This document shows positions 16,364-32,589 of a stretch of 32,589 nt of DNA, one piece after another. Source of the stretch: an uncultured Ilumatobacter sp. GTDB taxonomy: Bacteria; Actinomycetota; Acidimicrobiia; Acidimicrobiales; Ilumatobacteraceae. Location: positions 1 to 32,589 of the forward strand of contig CALFRK010000166.1 in NCBI GenBank assembly GCA_937919625.1, in the 5' to 3' direction. The notes below the pieces were generated by a model that did not search any database, had not been told where the DNA came from, and saw only the letters and a program-made list of their open reading frames with translations. Each line of letters opens with the position of its first letter. The stretch's first letter is position 1. The position numbers and the translations under genes were made by a program.

Positions 16364-17668
16364 ATGACCGATCCCACCGCCCCCGCCGCCGCCGAGCCCT
16401 ACGAGTCGGTCTTGCGCACGGGTGAGTTGCCCGTGATCGATAGCGCATCGGATTCACCGCCTCGTCGTCACTTTCGGCTCTCACTCAAGCTGTTGGCGTT
16501 TGCGGCGGTCCTGTACTACTTCGTCGTTCCGCTGATCCCCGACTTCAAGAACGCCTGGACCGAACTGCAACGCGTCGAGCCCCTGCTGCTGGTCCTCGGC
16601 CTCGGGCTCGAGGTGGTCGCCCTGTCTTGTTACGCCCCGCTGATGAAGGCTGCGCTCGGCGAGGCTGGGCTTCCGTTGTCGCTGGGGCGGCTGTTTCGGA
16701 TCCAGATGAGCACCCGTGCTTTGTCGAGCATCGTGCCCGGTGGCAGTGCCGCCAGCTCGGCTTTGGGATATCGGTTGATGACCTTGTCTGGCGTTGCGGG
16801 TCCCGACGCCGGCTTCGCCTTGGCAACCGTCGGCCTCGGCTCTGCCGTGATCTTGAACATGATCTTGTGGTGCGGGCTGATCGTTTCGATTCCCGTGCGA
16901 GGCGTGAACCCGATCTACGGCTCGGCTGCCCTCGCCGGAGTGATCGTGATGGGTTTGGCGGCGGCACTGGTATTCGGTCTGATGGAGGGGCAAGGCCGGT
17001 CGGAACGGGTGATTCGGTGGATCGCCAAGCAGTTTCGAATGGATGAAGACAAGGCGGCGACCGTGCTGCATCGCGTCGCAGAGCGCCTTGAACAGCTGAT
17101 CAGTGACAAACAGCTGCTCGGCCGGGTCGCCTTTTGGGCAGCGCTCAACTGGCTGTTCGATGCTGCCGCGTTGTGGATTTTTCTGCGGGCGTTCGGGATC
17201 ACGATGGATGTTGACGCGCTGATCATTTCGTTCGGCATCGCCAACGTGTTGGCGGCAATCCCGATCACCCCAGGCGGACTGGGGTACGTCGACACCAGCT
17301 ACATCGGCATGCTGGCCGGCTTTGGGGCCGGCCCTCGAAAGGCAGCGCTCGGCGTGGCGTCGTACCGGTTCGCCCAGTTCTTCTTCCCGATCCTGCTTGG
17401 CGGGATCCTGTACCTGTCGTTGCGTGTCGGCCCGTGGTCGATCGCACGGCACGAGCGCCTGATCCGCCTGCGCGATCTGGCCGAGGAAGAAACACGCCGC
17501 GGCGAATCGAATATCGACTTCCAATTGCGCTTCCCCACACGCGACGACACCGGTGAGCTGATTCGCCGGCCACACCGGGACGAGACCCTCGAGATTCGGT
17601 CACCCGCTACTGGAATCCAGCGCCAGCAAGAGCGATTCCAGCAGTGGCGTCGCAACCGCCGCCGTTGA
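16364..17668 (+). CDS. LPG_synthase_TM / UPF0104-type polytopic membrane protein
   Basis: 434 residues from ATG 16364. A polar N-terminus of about 40 residues precedes roughly eight membrane helices, and a charged cytoplasmic tail of about 80 residues follows (RHERLIRLRDLAEEETRRGES ... RFQQWRRNRRR). Family-typical features are RIQMSTRALSSIVPGGSAASSALGYRLM, where the (P)GG segment precedes a helix, and IPITPGGLGYVDTSYIGML near the last helices. This is the membrane part of lysylphosphatidylglycerol synthase and its flippase-like relatives. No aminoacyl-transferase domain is attached, so a lipid or glycan-lipid flippase-like role is the usual guess. The downstream gap contains repeat-element copy 2. 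Confidence 0.85.
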   Translation: MTDPTAPAAAEPYESVLRTGELPVIDSASDSPPRRHFRLSLKLLAFAAVLYYFVVPLIPDFKNAWTELQRVEPLLLVLGLGLEVVALSCYAPLMKAALGEAGLPLSLGRLFRIQMSTRALSSIVPGGSAASSALGYRLMTLSGVAGPDAGFALATVGLGSAVILNMILWCGLIVSIPVRGVNPIYGSAALAGVIVMGLAAALVFGLMEGQGRSERVIRWIAKQFRMDEDKAATVLHRVAERLEQLISDKQLLGRVAFWAALNWLFDAAALWIFLRAFGITMDVDALIISFGIANVLAAIPITPGGLGYVDTSYIGMLAGFGAGPRKAALGVASYRFAQFFFPILLGGILYLSLRVGPWSIARHERLIRLRDLAEEETRRGESNIDFQLRFPTRDDTGELIRRPHRDETLEIRSPATGIQRQQERFQQWRRNRRR

Positions 17669-17814: not shown

Positions 17815-18339
17815 TCAGCCGGCGGTGATCTGGCTGACGATCTCGTCGAACGCGGCGTCGGCGTAGGCGATCATCTCTTCGTCGGTTCGGTCCTGGATCG
17901 GGTGCGGTGTGAACACCCTCGCCATCGCCGAGTAGCCGAGCGACTTCGACTGTGACTCGGCGGCGGTGACGAACTCGCTCGAGGCCACGAACACGCCGGG
18001 AATGCCACGAATTTCCAGATCGCTGATGTCGTGCACACTGCACGACGTGCAACTGCCTCAATCGGCAAGTGCTTCGATCACCACCTGGCATTCCATCGCA
18101 ATCTCGTGGCGCAGGTCGACCGGTGCCGGCTTGGCAAACGTCGGCTTCTTGTAACGCTTGACATTGGCGCCGACCTCGTGGAGCCGTTGCTCGATGCGGT
18201 TGAGGAAGATGTCGCCGCGCGGCTTCGAGATGTCGAGCAGCCCGACGGTCAGCCCATCCAGCGAAGCCGGTCGCGCGAGACGGGCACGTTCGGCGAGCGT
18301 GCGCTCTCCGGTCGGATCGAGAATCGTTCGTGTGCTCAT
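17815..18339 (-). CDS. UGSC-family selenoprotein with in-frame UGA (Sec94)
   Basis: One 174-residue gene is read from ATG 18339 to TGA 17815-17817 through an in-frame UGA at 18060-18058 (codon 94). A clear Shine-Dalgarno (GGGAGAA, 18352-18346) precedes the ATG. The UGA falls in ALAD-U-GSCTSCSVHDISDLE. That matches the UGSC motif, which names a known selenoprotein family found in marine metagenomes, where U is Sec or Cys. Downstream sequence stays in the same frame and keeps family-like content (IPGVFVASSEF). A perfect 8-bp stem with a GUG loop begins 12 bases after the UGA, as expected of a bacterial SECIS. The UGSC and CTSC cysteines suggest a redox site. The enzyme's reaction is unknown. 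It is cotranscribed with the thioredoxin-fused gene 23 bases upstream. A nonsense-mutated pseudogene is the main alternative. Confidence 0.88.
18028..18046 (-). promoter_or_regulatory. Candidate bacterial SECIS stem-loop
   Basis: On the mRNA the UGA is followed, after 11 bases, by GUCGUGCA-GUG-UGCACGAC: eight perfect pairs and a three-base loop starting with G. The loop begins 20 bases after the UGA, inside the 16-37 base window generally used for bacterial SECIS searches. It sits within the coding sequence, as bacterial SECIS elements do. Recognition by SelB is inferred. Confidence 0.72.
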
Positions 18340-18362
18340 GTCGGCTTCTCCCAGGTCGATGA

Positions 18363-19799
18363 TCAGTATCGCACTTCACGGGTGACAGGTTTTGAACCCA
18401 TCTCGCCGTTGACCCAGCCGGGAATGACCGACGACAACAACCCGGCCCCACCGCCGGTGTAGGCGAGCATCAGCCCGTCGGGTCGGAACTTTGGAAGGTC
18501 GGCGGTGCTCATTCCGGCTGGGATGCCCTCGGCGATGCCGCCGGCTCCGCGCTCGAGCTTGGCGGCGGGTGTGGTGAGCCGCATGTGCAACTCGAACAGG
18601 ATCCGGTCGCGATCCCACCCTGCCTCGGCGAAAACGCGGGCGTGTTCAGGGCCCAGCACCAAGATCGCGTCGAAGCCGAGCACGAGCTTGTGGTGGTGCA
18701 GGACCTGGAGTTGAGCAGCGAGCGTGCTCGCCAAGCTCTCTGGCATTCGTGACAGCTGGTCGATCAGGCCACGCGGGCCTTCGCCGGCGAACACCGTGAT
18801 GGCGTCGACCCCTGGCTCGACGCCATGTTGACCCGCCAGGGTTCCGATCGGCGATCCGGCATCGTTCTCGGCGAAACAGAAGCTGAGCTTGGCAGGATTG
18901 CCGTGAGCCGCCCGGTCGATCTCGCCAGGGCGCCCGCCGCCGACATTGCGCACGATCAGCTGCAGTGCCCGCCCGATCGTGGAGTTGGCTCGATTGCCCT
19001 GGCCGAGCGCGTTGATTTCCGAGTTCATACCGATCGCTCGTGTGCCAGGCCCGCTGCACACCAGCACCGGGCCGACCGGCATCGTTGTGGCCAACAGGCC
19101 GTGCATGTTGAACTCGTTGTTGCAGACGGCCTCGACGGCGGTCAGCACCCACGGCATGTATTCCGGCAGGCAGCCGGCCATGACTGCAGATATCGCCACC
19201 TTCTCGACCGTGACGTCGACGAGGTCGGGTGGCACTGTGGCCACGATCTCGTCTGGCGCCCGCGAGGTGCCGGTGAGCATCTTGAGCACCCGCTGCTCTG
19301 TGGGTGGCACGACAGGCAGTCCGTCGGTCCAGCCACGGGTGAACATCATTTCGATCTCGTCTTCGGCGTCGGCCACCTCGATCCGCCTCGACCTCAGCAC
19401 GCCGCCTCCGTGGCGCACGTTCAGCTCGTCGACGAGATCGGGGTCGACGCTTTTCGAGCCGCAGCCGGGTCGCATGAGGGGGAGCCCGTCGCCGAGCCCA
19501 GAGATGCCCGTGAACTCCTCCCAGGCGGTGCGCAGCCAACCAAACGTGCGGTCGACCTCGACTCCGTCGATGACCCTGATCAACGTGGGCACCGTCTCGA
19601 TCTCGTGGTGCCAACTGACACCGAGGTCGGCGTCGTAGATCGCCGCTGGATCGCCTGGGAAGTTCGGGTCGTCCTGCGTGTAGACGGTGAGATCGGTGAC
19701 CGTGGCGAGCTGCTGCAACACTGGCACGACGGTTTGACAGGTCTCGCAATCGCGCTTGACGACCACCACGAATCCGTCCGGCAGTATCGGCTTACCCAT
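18363..19799 (-). CDS. Thioredoxin domain fused to UGSC-associated domain
   Basis: 478 residues from ATG 19799. Residues 1 to about 100 form a thioredoxin-like domain with a CETC redox motif (Cys18, Cys21) after a β-strand (FVVVVKRD) and a cis-Pro turn TVPTL (Pro71). A linker with PGCGSKS (Cys113) leads to a large domain of about 330 residues. That domain has MFTRGWTDGLPVVPPTEQRV (about 151-170), ISAVMAGCLPEYMPWVLTAVEAV, NMHGLLATTMPVGPVLVCSGP, NALGQGNRANSTIGRALQLIVRNVGG and FCFAEND. I recall this domain only as a conserved uncharacterised protein found beside UGSC proteins; that recollection is not verifiable here. It lies just upstream of the selenoprotein, so the CxxC could recycle the Sec/Cys centre. 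The reaction is unknown. Confidence 0.75.
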   Translation of the reverse strand: MGKPILPDGFVVVVKRDCETCQTVVPVLQQLATVTDLTVYTQDDPNFPGDPAAIYDADLGVSWHHEIETVPTLIRVIDGVEVDRTFGWLRTAWEEFTGISGLGDGLPLMRPGCGSKSVDPDLVDELNVRHGGGVLRSRRIEVADAEDEIEMMFTRGWTDGLPVVPPTEQRVLKMLTGTSRAPDEIVATVPPDLVDVTVEKVAISAVMAGCLPEYMPWVLTAVEAVCNNEFNMHGLLATTMPVGPVLVCSGPGTRAIGMNSEINALGQGNRANSTIGRALQLIVRNVGGGRPGEIDRAAHGNPAKLSFCFAENDAGSPIGTLAGQHGVEPGVDAITVFAGEGPRGLIDQLSRMPESLASTLAAQLQVLHHHKLVLGFDAILVLGPEHARVFAEAGWDRDRILFELHMRLTTPAAKLERGAGGIAEGIPAGMSTADLPKFRPDGLMLAYTGGGAGLLSSVIPGWVNGEMGSKPVTREVRY

Positions 19800-20776: not shown

Positions 20777-21952
20777 TCACACATGGTCGGACTCGGCGGG
20801 CGCGGTCGATCCTGGCCACCAGTGCTTGGGAAGCAACCGCTTGCCGTGTTCTTGGCGGTCGGCCAGCTTCAACGCAAGCCTGGGGGAGCGAGCGGCCAAC
20901 TTCACCCACCACCGGCTCGACTGCTTCGAATAGTCACGGTTGTAGGGGCACACACGGATACACACCGAACAGTCGGTGTTCACTTTCGACCAGTAGTTGA
21001 AGCACTTCACCCCATCGACCGACCACTTCTTCACGCCGATGATGTTCGAACGGTTGTGGCGCTCGGTCGAGGGTTTGCCCCCTGGGATCGCCTTTGCTGG
21101 GCAGGCATCGGTGCAACGGCGACAGCCATCGCAGAACCGTTCGACGCCGAACGACTTGGGCCGATCGCGAGTCAGCGGCATATCGGTGAATATCTTCCCG
21201 AGCCGAAGCCGCGGCCCGAACTCGGGCGTGATCAACAGCCCGTGGCGGCCATACTCGCCCAGCCCGGCCTCGAGCGCGTAGGGGATCGCCAGCGCCGTGT
21301 CGTTCATCGACGGGATCGCCAAATAGCCGAGGTTGCGAATGTATTGGGCGATCGTGAGCAACACCACCGAATCGAGCGAGTAACCGAGACCAGTCGCCGT
21401 GCCCGCCAAGGCGGACGGCGCCGTCCGCGTCAGATCGTGGTCCATCGACTGTCCGATCACGATCACGTTGGTCAACTCAGCGGGAAGATCGTTGGGTTTG
21501 GCGCCACCGGTTCGAACCGAGAACCGCTCGGTGTAGGTCCAGCGCTGGTCGAATGGTGCGATTCCGACGAGATCAGCTCCGACCACTTTGGCGACATGTT
21601 TGACGTCTTGTGAGGCAGCGTCGGGCGAGTCGAAATCGATCCGTTCGCCGGCACCGTCGCGCAACATCGAGAGCGGATCGAGAAATCCGTCTCGGCGGTC
21701 GTCGTGCTCGTACATCTCGGCGAAGATGTCGGTCACGTGCCAGGCCGCGTTGCGTAAGGCGTAGTCGTGCTGCGTGAAGCCAGCAGCGGCTCGCCAGTCG
21801 GTCAGCGGTCGCCGATAGGTCGAGTAGAAGCGGTCGGAGGCGTCCGACTGCACCTCTGGGTCCCAACGCGATCGCGAGAATACGTCGTCGACCTGTGAGA
21901 ACCGCTCGAACGACTTGAGCACCTCGTAGTTGTGGTGGAGTTGGTTGGTCAT
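20777..21952 (-). CDS. Reductive-dehalogenase-like cobalamin/Fe-S protein, no Tat signal
   Basis: 391 residues. Two ferredoxin-type clusters are clear: Cys274, 277, 280 and 284 (CDGCRRCTDACP), and Cys317, 328, 331 and 335 (DCSVCIRVCP). The part before them matches reductive dehalogenases closely in motif order: GADLVGIAPFDQRWTY, the (A/G)-rich TGLGYSLDSVV, AQYIRNLGYLAIPSMNDTALAIPYALEAGLGEYGRHGLLITPEFGPRLRLGKIFTDMPL. Many family members read GRNG where this has GRHG (His237). There is no Tat signal and no membrane anchor gene nearby, so it is probably cytoplasmic. QueG, which shares cofactor types, is less likely because these RdhA-specific stretches are present. Substrate unknown. It is 6 bases after the CoA-binding gene and 12 before PhyH. 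Confidence 0.85.
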   Translation of the reverse strand: MTNQLHHNYEVLKSFERFSQVDDVFSRSRWDPEVQSDASDRFYSTYRRPLTDWRAAAGFTQHDYALRNAAWHVTDIFAEMYEHDDRRDGFLDPLSMLRDGAGERIDFDSPDAASQDVKHVAKVVGADLVGIAPFDQRWTYTERFSVRTGGAKPNDLPAELTNVIVIGQSMDHDLTRTAPSALAGTATGLGYSLDSVVLLTIAQYIRNLGYLAIPSMNDTALAIPYALEAGLGEYGRHGLLITPEFGPRLRLGKIFTDMPLTRDRPKSFGVERFCDGCRRCTDACPAKAIPGGKPSTERHNRSNIIGVKKWSVDGVKCFNYWSKVNTDCSVCIRVCPYNRDYSKQSSRWWVKLAARSPRLALKLADRQEHGKRLLPKHWWPGSTAPAESDHV

Positions 21953-30716: not shown

Positions 30717-31346
30717 TCAGCCGAGTCGGATCGACAGAGCGGCTTCGAGGGCGAAGATTGCCTGCGCGACGTTTAACACCTTGATCGTAGTCATGCCCAT
30801 CGCCTTTGCCGGCTTGAGGTTGATGCCGAGATCGTCGAGGAACACGACCTCGTGGGGTTCGACGCCGACTGTTGCGCATGCAATCTCGTAGAACTCTGGT
30901 TCAGGCTTGCGGCATCCGACCTTGCTCGACTCGATCACGTGATGGAAGCGCTCCATCACCGCGTCGACCTCCGCTCGCGAATGGTCGGTCGAGACGTTGT
31001 TCGTCAGGCAGGCGGTGATGTATCCCGCTTCGATCACACGATCGAGTGCCGTCACCATCTCTGGCCGCACCGAACCACTCAGCATGCCGAGCACGTCGAG
31101 TCCGGGAACCAGGTGACCGGCCGCCTCTGATTCCTTCGCGAACAAGGCATCGAACTGGATCGAATCGACCTCTCGACGCTCGATCAACGCCCAGGCGTTT
31201 GTGTCGGGGTGGCGGCTGTTGATAGTGCGAATGAAGTCGATCGGGAGCCCGTGCTGCCTCTCGTAGGCGTTGAACGCATCGAACGGGCTGGACAGGATCA
31301 CACCCCCGAAGTCCCAGAAGACGGCCTTGAACTTCGTGGTCTGCAT
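30717..31346 (-). CDS. HAD-superfamily hydrolase (sEH-N/YihX-like IA group)
   Basis: 209 residues from ATG 31346 (MQTTKFKAVFWDFGGV). The frame stays open far upstream, but that part is antisense to the next gene. HAD motifs: I (WDFGGV, Asp12, with Gly14 in place of the second Asp), II (CLTNNVS), III (GCRKPEPEFY, Lys) and IV (VFLDDLGIN). This D-x-G motif I and the FLDDLGINLKPAKAMGM ending are typical of the soluble epoxide hydrolase N-terminal/YihX-like group of phosphatases. The substrate is unknown. It is divergent from the NYN gene with 75 bases between starts. Confidence 0.9.
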   Translation of the reverse strand: MQTTKFKAVFWDFGGVILSSPFDAFNAYERQHGLPIDFIRTINSRHPDTNAWALIERREVDSIQFDALFAKESEAAGHLVPGLDVLGMLSGSVRPEMVTALDRVIEAGYITACLTNNVSTDHSRAEVDAVMERFHHVIESSKVGCRKPEPEFYEIACATVGVEPHEVVFLDDLGINLKPAKAMGMTTIKVLNVAQAIFALEAALSIRLG

Positions 31347-31421
31347 CGGCGGGCACTCTACGATGTACGACAGCGTCGCGCCCACCTGGTGCACGCGTTC
31401 ACGAATCGAGAATTTGTCCAC

Positions 31422-32589
31422 ATGGCGAAAGTAAGTAGACCGGGCCATTTCGTGGTCGACGGGTCCAATATCGCAACCGAAGGCCGCAGCGAGCCGAGCC
31501 TTGAACAACTCAACGACGCAGTGCTCGCCTTCATGGAGGATCACCCGGGTGCTGTGATCACTGTGGTGGTCGACGCGACCTTCGGGCATCGCATCGCCAG
31601 CAAAGAAGTGAAGGCATTCGACGAGGCTGTCGCCAACAACGAACTGGTCACCCCTCCCGCCGGGGCGATCGGACGTGGTGACGCGTTCGTGCTCACGATC
31701 GCCAACAAGGCCGGCGCCGGCGTGTTGTCGAATGACTCGTTCCAAGAGTTCCACGGTGACTACGACTGGCTCTTCGACGAAGGTCGCCTGATCGGTGGAA
31801 AGCCAGTGCCACATGTCGGATGGGTGTTTGTGGCGCGCTCGCCAGTGCGAGGCCCCAAGAGTCGCCAGTCGGTACGCGAGGCCAACGCTGGTGCCACGGG
31901 CACCGTCGCGACCGAAGCCAAAGAGCGCGCCAACCGGCGCGTTCGGGCCAAGGCACCGTCGCCGTCGGGCGACGACTCTGGTGTGGTCGCGCCAGCGCCC
32001 GAACCCGCCGCGTCGGGTAGTGGTCGGTCTGGCCGTAGCCGTGGTGGACGTTCGCGCGGCGACAAGCAAACATCCGTTCAGGTAACCGAACAGGGACAGG
32101 CGGCCGAGGCGGCTAGTCCGGCACCGTCGCCTCAGGATCACGTCAACGAACTGTTGCCGTTTCTCGAGTTCGTCGAACGGCACCCGATCGGCACCAGCTG
32201 CACAGGGGTCGTCGAGAGTTACGCCTCGCACGGTGCGTACGCCAAAGTCGGCGATGTCTCGATCTATATCCCGCTGCGATTGATGGACAGCCCAGCGCCG
32301 CGCAGTGCACGATCGGTGTTGGCAGCCGGCCAAGCGGTGACGGCCGTGATCGTCGGCTACGTGGCTGATCGACGTTCGATCGACGCAGCCCTTCCTCACA
32401 TGGCCGACGCTGCACTCGCTGATGCAGCCAGGCCCGAAGATGGTGTCACGGGCAAGTCCTCTGCGTCGGCCAAAACGGCAGCAACCAAAACGGCAGCAAC
32501 CAAAACGGCAGCAACCAAAACGGCAGCAACCAAGACGGCAGCAACCAAGACGGCAGCAACCAAGACGGCAGCAACCAAGAAGGCAGCAA
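31422..32589 (+). CDS. NYN/PIN-like (Zc3h12a-type) ribonuclease protein, 3'-truncated by the window end
   Basis: The frame is open from ATG 31422 to the window edge (389 codons, no stop). Residues 9 to about 140 (HFVVDGSNIATEGR, VVVDATFGHRI, GAIGRGDAFVLTIANKAGAGVLSNDSFQEF) fit the PIN-like NYN fold, with Asp residues placed to bind catalytic metal. A disordered stretch (about 145-240) rich in Arg, Gly and Ser follows. Next is a segment of about 70 residues resembling an S1/OB RNA-binding fold (TCTGVVESYASHGAYAKVGDVSIYIPLRLM). Last is a Lys/Ala/Thr tail made of KTAAT repeats. The overall architecture suggests an RNA-degrading or RNA-binding enzyme. The true C-terminus is not visible. Confidence 0.8.
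   Translation, partial: MAKVSRPGHFVVDGSNIATEGRSEPSLEQLNDAVLAFMEDHPGAVITVVVDATFGHRIASKEVKAFDEAVANNELVTPPAGAIGRGDAFVLTIANKAGAGVLSNDSFQEFHGDYDWLFDEGRLIGGKPVPHVGWVFVARSPVRGPKSRQSVREANAGATGTVATEAKERANRRVRAKAPSPSGDDSGVVAPAPEPAASGSGRSGRSRGGRSRGDKQTSVQVTEQGQAAEAASPAPSPQDHVNELLPFLEFVERHPIGTSCTGVVESYASHGAYAKVGDVSIYIPLRLMDSPAPRSARSVLAAGQAVTAVIVGYVADRRSIDAALPHMADAALADAARPEDGVTGKSSASAKTAATKTAATKTAATKTAATKTAATKTAATKTAATKKAA
32472..32589. repeat. 15-bp in-frame repeat encoding KTAAT
   Basis: Seven complete 15-mers (AAAACGGCAGCAACC; the last three begin AAG) and a partial eighth with ACG changed to AAG reach the window edge. The period is five codons (K-T-A-A-T). The tail is like histone-H1-type Lys/Ala repeats of actinobacterial nucleic-acid-binding proteins. 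The full copy number is unknown. Confidence 0.92.

Follow-up and report, generated by a model that had tools for sequence, protein, structure and literature searches.

A UGSC-family selenoprotein gene with an in-frame UGA and its conserved upstream partner in an Ilumatobacter-related actinobacterium

Genes and features at the locus

The locus comprises a UGSC-family gene interrupted once by UGA and a larger partner gene lying upstream of it. Positions are those of the window, i.e. the whole stretch of 32,589 nt that was analysed, and each feature is given with its strand.

17815–18339 (−): UGSC-family selenoprotein gene (174 aa, Sec94; stop TGA at 17817–17815)
18058–18060 (−): in-frame UGA, the Sec94 codon, opening the UxxC motif (U94-G-S-C97)
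18049–18051 (−): Cys97 codon, the predicted resolving cysteine of UxxC
18028–18046 (−): bacterial-SECIS-like hairpin, GUCGUGCA-GUG-UGCACGAC, beginning 14 nt past the first base of the UGA
18348–18352 (−): Shine–Dalgarno-like GGGAG, at positions −13 to −9 relative to the ATG
18363–19799 (−): partner gene, 478 aa, co-directional and 23 nt upstream of the UGSC gene, with a thioredoxin-like N-terminus and an undescribed domain of ~330 aa
19503–19799 (−): thioredoxin-like domain, partner residues 1–99
19737–19748 (−): redox motif C18-E-T-C21 of the partner
19461–19463 (−): Cys113 (PGCGS) of the partner, invariant in a 35-row alignment and replaced by Sec in a single clade with 11 members
18366–19367 (−): C-terminal domain, partner residues 145–478, common to the partners of distant UGSC paralogues

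Read through its TGA, the frame running from 18339 to 17815 on the reverse strand gives 174 residues with a single internal UGA at codon 94 (18060–18058), in the context ...EALAD-U-GSCTSCSVHD...; 80 codons separate this UGA from the TGA stop at 17817–17815, and without read-through the frame is an ORF of 93 aa. A sequence-only reading of this DNA had claimed a lone UGA at this position, 80 codons beyond it, a Shine–Dalgarno sequence ahead of the ATG and a truncated 93-residue protein under ordinary gene calling, all of which is borne out by translation and by the GGGAG listed above. The family named in that reading is likewise correct, as the read-through product scores 153.4 bits against PF24696 (UGSC; E-value 8.4e-45, cut-off 25) and 167.3 bits against NF041046 ('UGSC family (seleno)protein'; cut-off 125), with both matches spanning the UGA. 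Since both scores exceed their cut-offs and both matches cross the UGA, the read-through frame is not a product of chance. The U-G-S-C stands where the family has it, the UxxC motif begins with Sec or Cys, and U exchanges with C amongst relatives. The window's gene departs from the family in no way. It is one selenoprotein gene split by a stop codon, and belongs to a family on record since 2008.

Decoding of the UGA as selenocysteine

The hairpin consists of an 8-bp stem and a GUG loop, the synonymous sites of which are nearly fixed among relatives. In the 109 unique close genes, Ser+7 is encoded by AGT in every case (109/109), against a frequency of 0.04 for this codon elsewhere in the gene, whilst the same comparison gives 105/106 against 0.29 for ACG at Thr+4, 108/109 against 0.41 for GTG at Val+8 and 109/109 against 0.61 for GAC at Asp+10. 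Counted over the rows that carry the residue concerned, one codon accounts for 98–100 % at positions +4, +6, +7, +8 and +10 past the UGA, and for 92 % and 88 % at +5 and +9, respectively. A stem–loop with a G in its apical loop, under selection and just past the UGA, is thus present, as in bacterial selenoprotein genes. Folding energy improves only modestly on that of synonymous shuffles (mean z of −0.84, with 55 of the 109 genes below −1) and would by itself be weak proof of a SECIS element; the codon test was used in its stead. Amongst the Cys-type UGSC paralogues, four (L130–L133) keep much of the SECIS-like stem, bearing AGC where Sec relatives have AGT, and one of them, L132, folds with a complete stem; these are possibly fossil hairpins left by Sec-to-Cys loss.

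The host is an actinobacterium, the nearest named matches being Acidimicrobiaceae/Ilumatobacter MAGs (92–88 %), in agreement with the apparent actinobacterial origin proposed from the sequence. A search of its assembly (4.10 Mb in 185 contigs, completeness 98.7 %) for the sel genes, suggested in the same place, recovers the full set: one tRNA-Sec above the Rfam cut-off (63.9 bits), which ARAGORN also calls as tRNA-SeC with anticodon TCA; selA (406.9 bits) and selB (262 bits), adjacent on host contig 1; and selD (322.7 bits). SelA, SelB, SelD and tRNA-Sec, the combination expected for bacterial selenoprotein synthesis, therefore occur in one genome. In the tRNA-Sec and selB searches rows below the cut-off were not counted, and all 14 of the 14 control genomes were matched, above the cut-off in 5 and 2, respectively; sub-cut-off rows and control matches presumably stem from other tRNAs and from elongation factors. 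Across 296 genomes of the host's class, selA (E-value below 1e-50) was found in 81 of the 83 genomes with a UGA form of UGSC among the matches listed, in 10 of the 22 UGSC genomes with no such form listed, and in 110 of the 191 genomes lacking UGSC. The two UGA-form genomes without selA are 79 % (G188) and 96 % (G292) complete.

With regard to the Sec column itself, U is found in 110 of the 110 closest UGSC loci, the window being counted once (108 by pattern, 2 by reading). These comprise 30 loci from class genomes, the window among them, and 80 from named genomes; they are the best matches and so not a random sample, and they span many assemblies with some near-copies (112 hairpin stretches, 109 unique). 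Amongst 40 more distant loci, 38 pattern-found rows divide into 21 with U and 17 with C, by a pattern that keeps only U and C rows and missed some. The anticipated alternation of U with C is consequently seen in the family at large; three paralogues (L190, L196 and L197) carry U-G-A-C in place of U-G-S-C.

To derive the UGA from a Cys-type gene by nonsense mutation or by sequencing error would require little, as one base separates TGA from the TGC or TGT of the Cys forms, yet this is an exceedingly improbable explanation given the same TGA in 110/110 close loci, the fixed hairpin codons and the presence of the sel genes. Sequencing error in particular, which the earlier reading had named among its refuting findings, is made very unlikely by the recurrence of the UGA at the same column in independent assemblies; of the refuting findings named there, none was encountered. 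Considering the family profiles, the hairpin with its fixed synonymous codons, the complete Sec machinery and the U/C exchange together, the UGA is almost certainly decoded as Sec.

UGSC occurs in 105 of the 296 class genomes, and in its UGA form in at least 83; Sec forms are common in the host's class. The Geodermatophilaceae are also an actinobacterial family. Because selenoproteins with the UGSC motif are, according to the available passages of PMC5330540, already on record for Geodermatophilaceae, the window's is not the first Sec form from an actinobacterium; the suggestion that one is worth recording holds as to the actinobacterial host and fails as to rarity, given that report and the 83 or more genomes counted here. 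In accessible parts of the literature UGSC is named in PMC2398784, PMC13188914, PMC9312934 and PMC5330540, and its inclusion in the GOS selenoproteome of 2008 agrees with the statement that the family stems from marine metagenome selenoproteome work.

The partner gene and an apparent second selenocysteine site in one clade

Every close UGSC locus (110/110) contains a relative of the partner gene, in each case on the strand of UGSC. The intervening gap lies within −30 to 150 nt in 103 of the 106 cases measured, 39 of which have a 4-nt overlap; in L067 and L112 the partner is 1.1 and 2.1 kb from UGSC, respectively, and the gap in L081 is a misjudged start. The partner profile matches 126 of the 296 class genomes at an E-value of 0.001 and 105 at below 1e-40. 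UGSC and partner, found in 105 genomes each, co-occur in 103 (Fisher 5e-75), the exceptions being two genomes with UGSC and no strong partner (G103, G196) and two with a partner and no UGSC (G092, G162). Judged by gene order and co-occurrence, UGSC and its upstream partner form an operon-like, near-obligate pair.

No Pfam or NCBIfam family matches the partner gene (18363–19799) at an E-value of 0.001. Its N-terminus, nevertheless, matches PDB thioredoxins in sequence (E-value 1.3e-4) and in structure (Z 9.4, 2.6 Å, 85 residues), such that residues 1–99 display a thioredoxin fold with a CxxC motif. The C-x-T-C form of the motif, shared with thioredoxin (TIGR01068 / PF00085), is invariant in 35 aligned partners, with C-P-A-C in most of the clade bearing Sec at residue 113; the VPT of the partner resembles the cis-Pro loop of thioredoxin. 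A search by one pattern for Sec within this CxxC returned 82 CxTC and no U. Differences from thioredoxin are that the match to TIGR01068 is weak (21 of 35 partners at E-values up to 0.01, the window's own not among them) and that the domain is fused to an undescribed one; the UGSC protein itself has no thioredoxin match. For the C-terminal domain no confident fold match was obtained, class I fumarase being rejected since the Foldseek rows concerned have a TM of ~0.2 and an rmsd of ~16–18 Å.

All 20 of the 20 distant UGSC loci fetched contain a relative of the partner's C-terminal part (from residue ~112–156 onwards), and no match to the thioredoxin-like part was found at these 20. The core unit would thus seem to be UGSC with the C-terminal domain, the thioredoxin-like domain being an apparent addition in the window's subgroup. 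The 2008 GOS paper (PMC2398784) mentions, in its available passages, a fusion of UGSC with 'Unknown_1', which may be the domain of the window's partner.

The window's own partner has Cys at residue 113, within PG-C-GS. In 11 of 99 partner rows (L046, L108, L110, L115, L121, L122, L123, L128 and L246–L248) this residue is encoded by TGA, and the UGA of UGSC is present too in 11/11 of these loci. A hairpin-forming stretch follows the partner UGA, GACCCCGGGCGGGTC, exact in 7 of the 11 and in close variants in 4, and is absent from the three Cys relatives compared. The L128 partner folds only weakly, and that of L121 folds otherwise in a 51-nt window; hairpin energies overlap, the 11 Sec rows having a mean of −13.3 kcal/mol (−15.5 to −6.3) and the 88 Cys rows a mean of −8.9 kcal/mol (−20.8 to −3.2). 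The 11 Sec113 partners constitute one clade (100/100 support) nested in Cys-bearing rows, requiring one change. As the tree is rooted by midpoint, a change of Cys113 to Sec within this clade is the simplest reading of the sequences rather than proven. The replacement of Cys by Sec in an 11-member clade makes Cys113 a likely redox residue. The Sec113 partner is an apparent selenoprotein for which no description was found, encoded in the same operon as UGSC, and the apparent Cys-to-Sec change would offer a clean case for the origin of a Sec site together with its hairpin.

Probable relation to GrdB/PrdB and a proposed reaction

Profiles of 79 UGSC proteins and 40 GrdB/PrdB tails were compared by hhalign, giving Prob 91.0 and P 1.1e-6, and in the other direction Prob 95.9 and P 5.6e-9. 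The alignment begins slightly ahead of the Sec, extends over ~85 columns to the C-terminus and sets Sec column on Sec column; with the motif masked the match persists (P 1.9e-5, Prob 77.7), against P 0.16 for a reversed profile and P 0.023 for the best of 22 same-locus ORF clusters (2 of the 22 being mostly shadow frames of the UGSC–partner pair). Against GrdB alone the values are Prob 71.7 and P 3.5e-5, against PrdB alone Prob 14.8 and P 0.0018, and against GrdE P 0.029, whilst an initial comparison using shallow profiles (4 GrdB rows) was unconvincing (Prob 9–15). The GrdB/PrdB tail profile itself aligns along 55 columns with GrdE's C-terminal part (Prob 53.8, P 1.3e-4), perhaps through an old duplication or merely a shared fold, so alpha/beta proteins of unclear kinship can score in such a range. 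There is, then, significant profile–profile similarity with the Sec columns aligned, as would be expected within a wider GrdB/PrdB superfamily, and the best reading of these comparisons is that the Sec-bearing half of UGSC is probably remotely homologous to that end of GrdB/PrdB which carries the Sec.

Further points of likeness are the 17 residues (counted by eye) from Sec to a G-I-P-like turn in UGSC, GrdB and PrdB, the UxxC motif in UGSC and PrdB-like genes, and the position of the Sec gene directly downstream of a partner gene. UGSC nonetheless lies outside PF07355: its protein has no match to this family at E-values up to 10, PF24696 alone being found. The host's own genome also has no PF07355 match (nor do the controls) in a search that finds 89 of the 296 class genomes, matches in the class ending at about the UGA. 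Moreover, the UGSC partner, with its thioredoxin-like and undescribed domains, is unlike GrdE. Its C-terminal domain was rejected as a GrdE homologue, there being no match to 19 GrdE (Prob 0.1), and PF09338, present in 20 of the 296 class genomes, is absent from the host's own; as judged by GrdE and PF09338, a pyruvoyl proprotein partner of the GrdB/PrdB kind was not found. GrdB differs additionally in that a Cys three residues past the Sec is missing from all 20 GrdB-like genes read. GrdB-like and PrdB-like UGA genes are common in the host's actinobacterial class; those read comprise full-length GrdB-like genes (L150–L169) continuing as U-G-T-x-T-R in 20/20 and short PrdB-like genes (L170–L189) with U-P-x-C in 20/20.

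Sequence searches gave no credible solved relative of UGSC or of a GrdB. An AlphaFold2 model of UGSC (pLDDT 90.9) has a five-strand alternating alpha/beta fold in which the Sec opens the helix following strand 86–92, and structure searches with it return generic, mostly Rossmann-like matches. The 2008 GOS paper (PMC2398784) suggests, in the part available, a thioredoxin fold for UGSC, and the modelled fold is not obviously the same; thioredoxin is named in none of the best 50 rows of either structure search, an absence that is no proof. These observations bear on an alternative in which the protein is a selenoprotein acting as a thioredoxin-fold thiol oxidoreductase or peroxidase on disulphides or peroxides. 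This would suit the UxxC motif, the thioredoxin-like partner and the fold suggested in 2008, as well as a paper titled on GrdB's own peroxidase activity that is cited in the accessible text of PMC3091704; it fits poorly with the alternating alpha/beta model, the mostly Rossmann-like matches without thioredoxin and the profile match to GrdB/PrdB, and we regard it as unlikely, if worth serious consideration. Considerably less likely still is that the pair serves as an electron carrier or as a metal/cluster handling factor and is no substrate reductase. Here the top VIA-align row for the UGSC model is chain H of 8S7V, an MCR activation complex (Z 11.4, 3.5 Å, 133 residues), probably Mmp7 as inferred from its length; Mmp7, according to the passages available of PMC12176620, helps to bind FeS clusters. 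The next rows, however, sugar-binding and repressor proteins, follow within ~1 Z, and the sequence gives no support. Being tied with unrelated folds, the 8S7V match was not relied upon.

In preference to these alternatives, the selenoprotein UGSC probably supplies the Sec of a thioredoxin-coupled reductase built from two proteins. As described in the accessible text of PMC3091704, D-proline reductase holds its substrate on the pyruvoyl group of PrdA, where it is attacked by the Sec of PrdB; a PrdB Cys then releases the product, leaving a mixed selenide–sulphide that is re-reduced, and glycine reduction uses thioredoxin. By analogy we infer a similar order of events, in which the partner would both hold the substrate and act as the pair's own reductant. 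The partner's C-terminal domain would bind and present the substrate, and Sec94, at a helix N-terminus, would attack it and reductively cleave a bond. Cys97 would free the product, leaving a selenide–sulphide as in the PrdB proposal, which the partner's thioredoxin-like domain (C18-x-T-C21) could reduce for the next cycle, perhaps via Cys113 (Sec113 in one clade). Substrate activation probably differs from that of the GrdB/PrdB systems, because no relative of the pyruvoyl proprotein GrdE was found in the pair. More tentatively, and as a possibility we would put somewhat short of even, the pair may represent a third branch of GrdB/PrdB-type Sec reductases, pyruvoyl-independent and supplied straight from a built-in thioredoxin, that radiated into many paralogous pairs in non-clostridial bacteria and became, in one Acidimicrobiales clade, a two-selenoprotein enzyme from one operon through the change of Cys113 to Sec with its own hairpin.

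Amongst titles and abstract openings on UGSC and selenoproteins, a body of text beyond which most subscription papers lie, none mentions kinship with GrdB/PrdB or a partner bearing Sec, and the available passages of the UGSC literature likewise contain neither that kinship nor the thioredoxin-fused partner. With a partner gene, a predicted electron donor and a putative kinship to enzymes whose chemistry is known, the orphan UGSC becomes a protein that can be expressed and assayed.

As for the substrate, ten neighbours chosen from 16 fetched loci of paralogue pairs were scanned, and include hydantoinase A/B, amidohydrolase, luciferase-like monooxygenase, acyl-CoA dehydrogenase, CoA-transferase III, branched-chain permease and TauD. 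That some UGSC paralogues lie near genes for the breakdown of small organic compounds is suggestive only. At the window's own locus no substrate is indicated, because genes further out than the partner are seldom shared between loci. In the 110 UGSC loci the gene at 16364–17668 recurs 17 times, PhyH 4, the CoA-binding gene 3, and the reductive-dehalogenase-like and O-acetylhomoserine sulfhydrylase genes once each, counts that are minima because many of the loci are short; the wider neighbourhood was accordingly set aside as a clue to the substrate. The reductive-dehalogenase-like gene, at 20777–21952 (−), scores 172.4 bits against TIGR02486 (cut-off 160.35) and runs with the PhyH, CoA-binding and O-acetylhomoserine sulfhydrylase genes. 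At 31209–32588 (+), a frame that runs off the end of the window carries about seven KTAAT-type repeats C-terminally.
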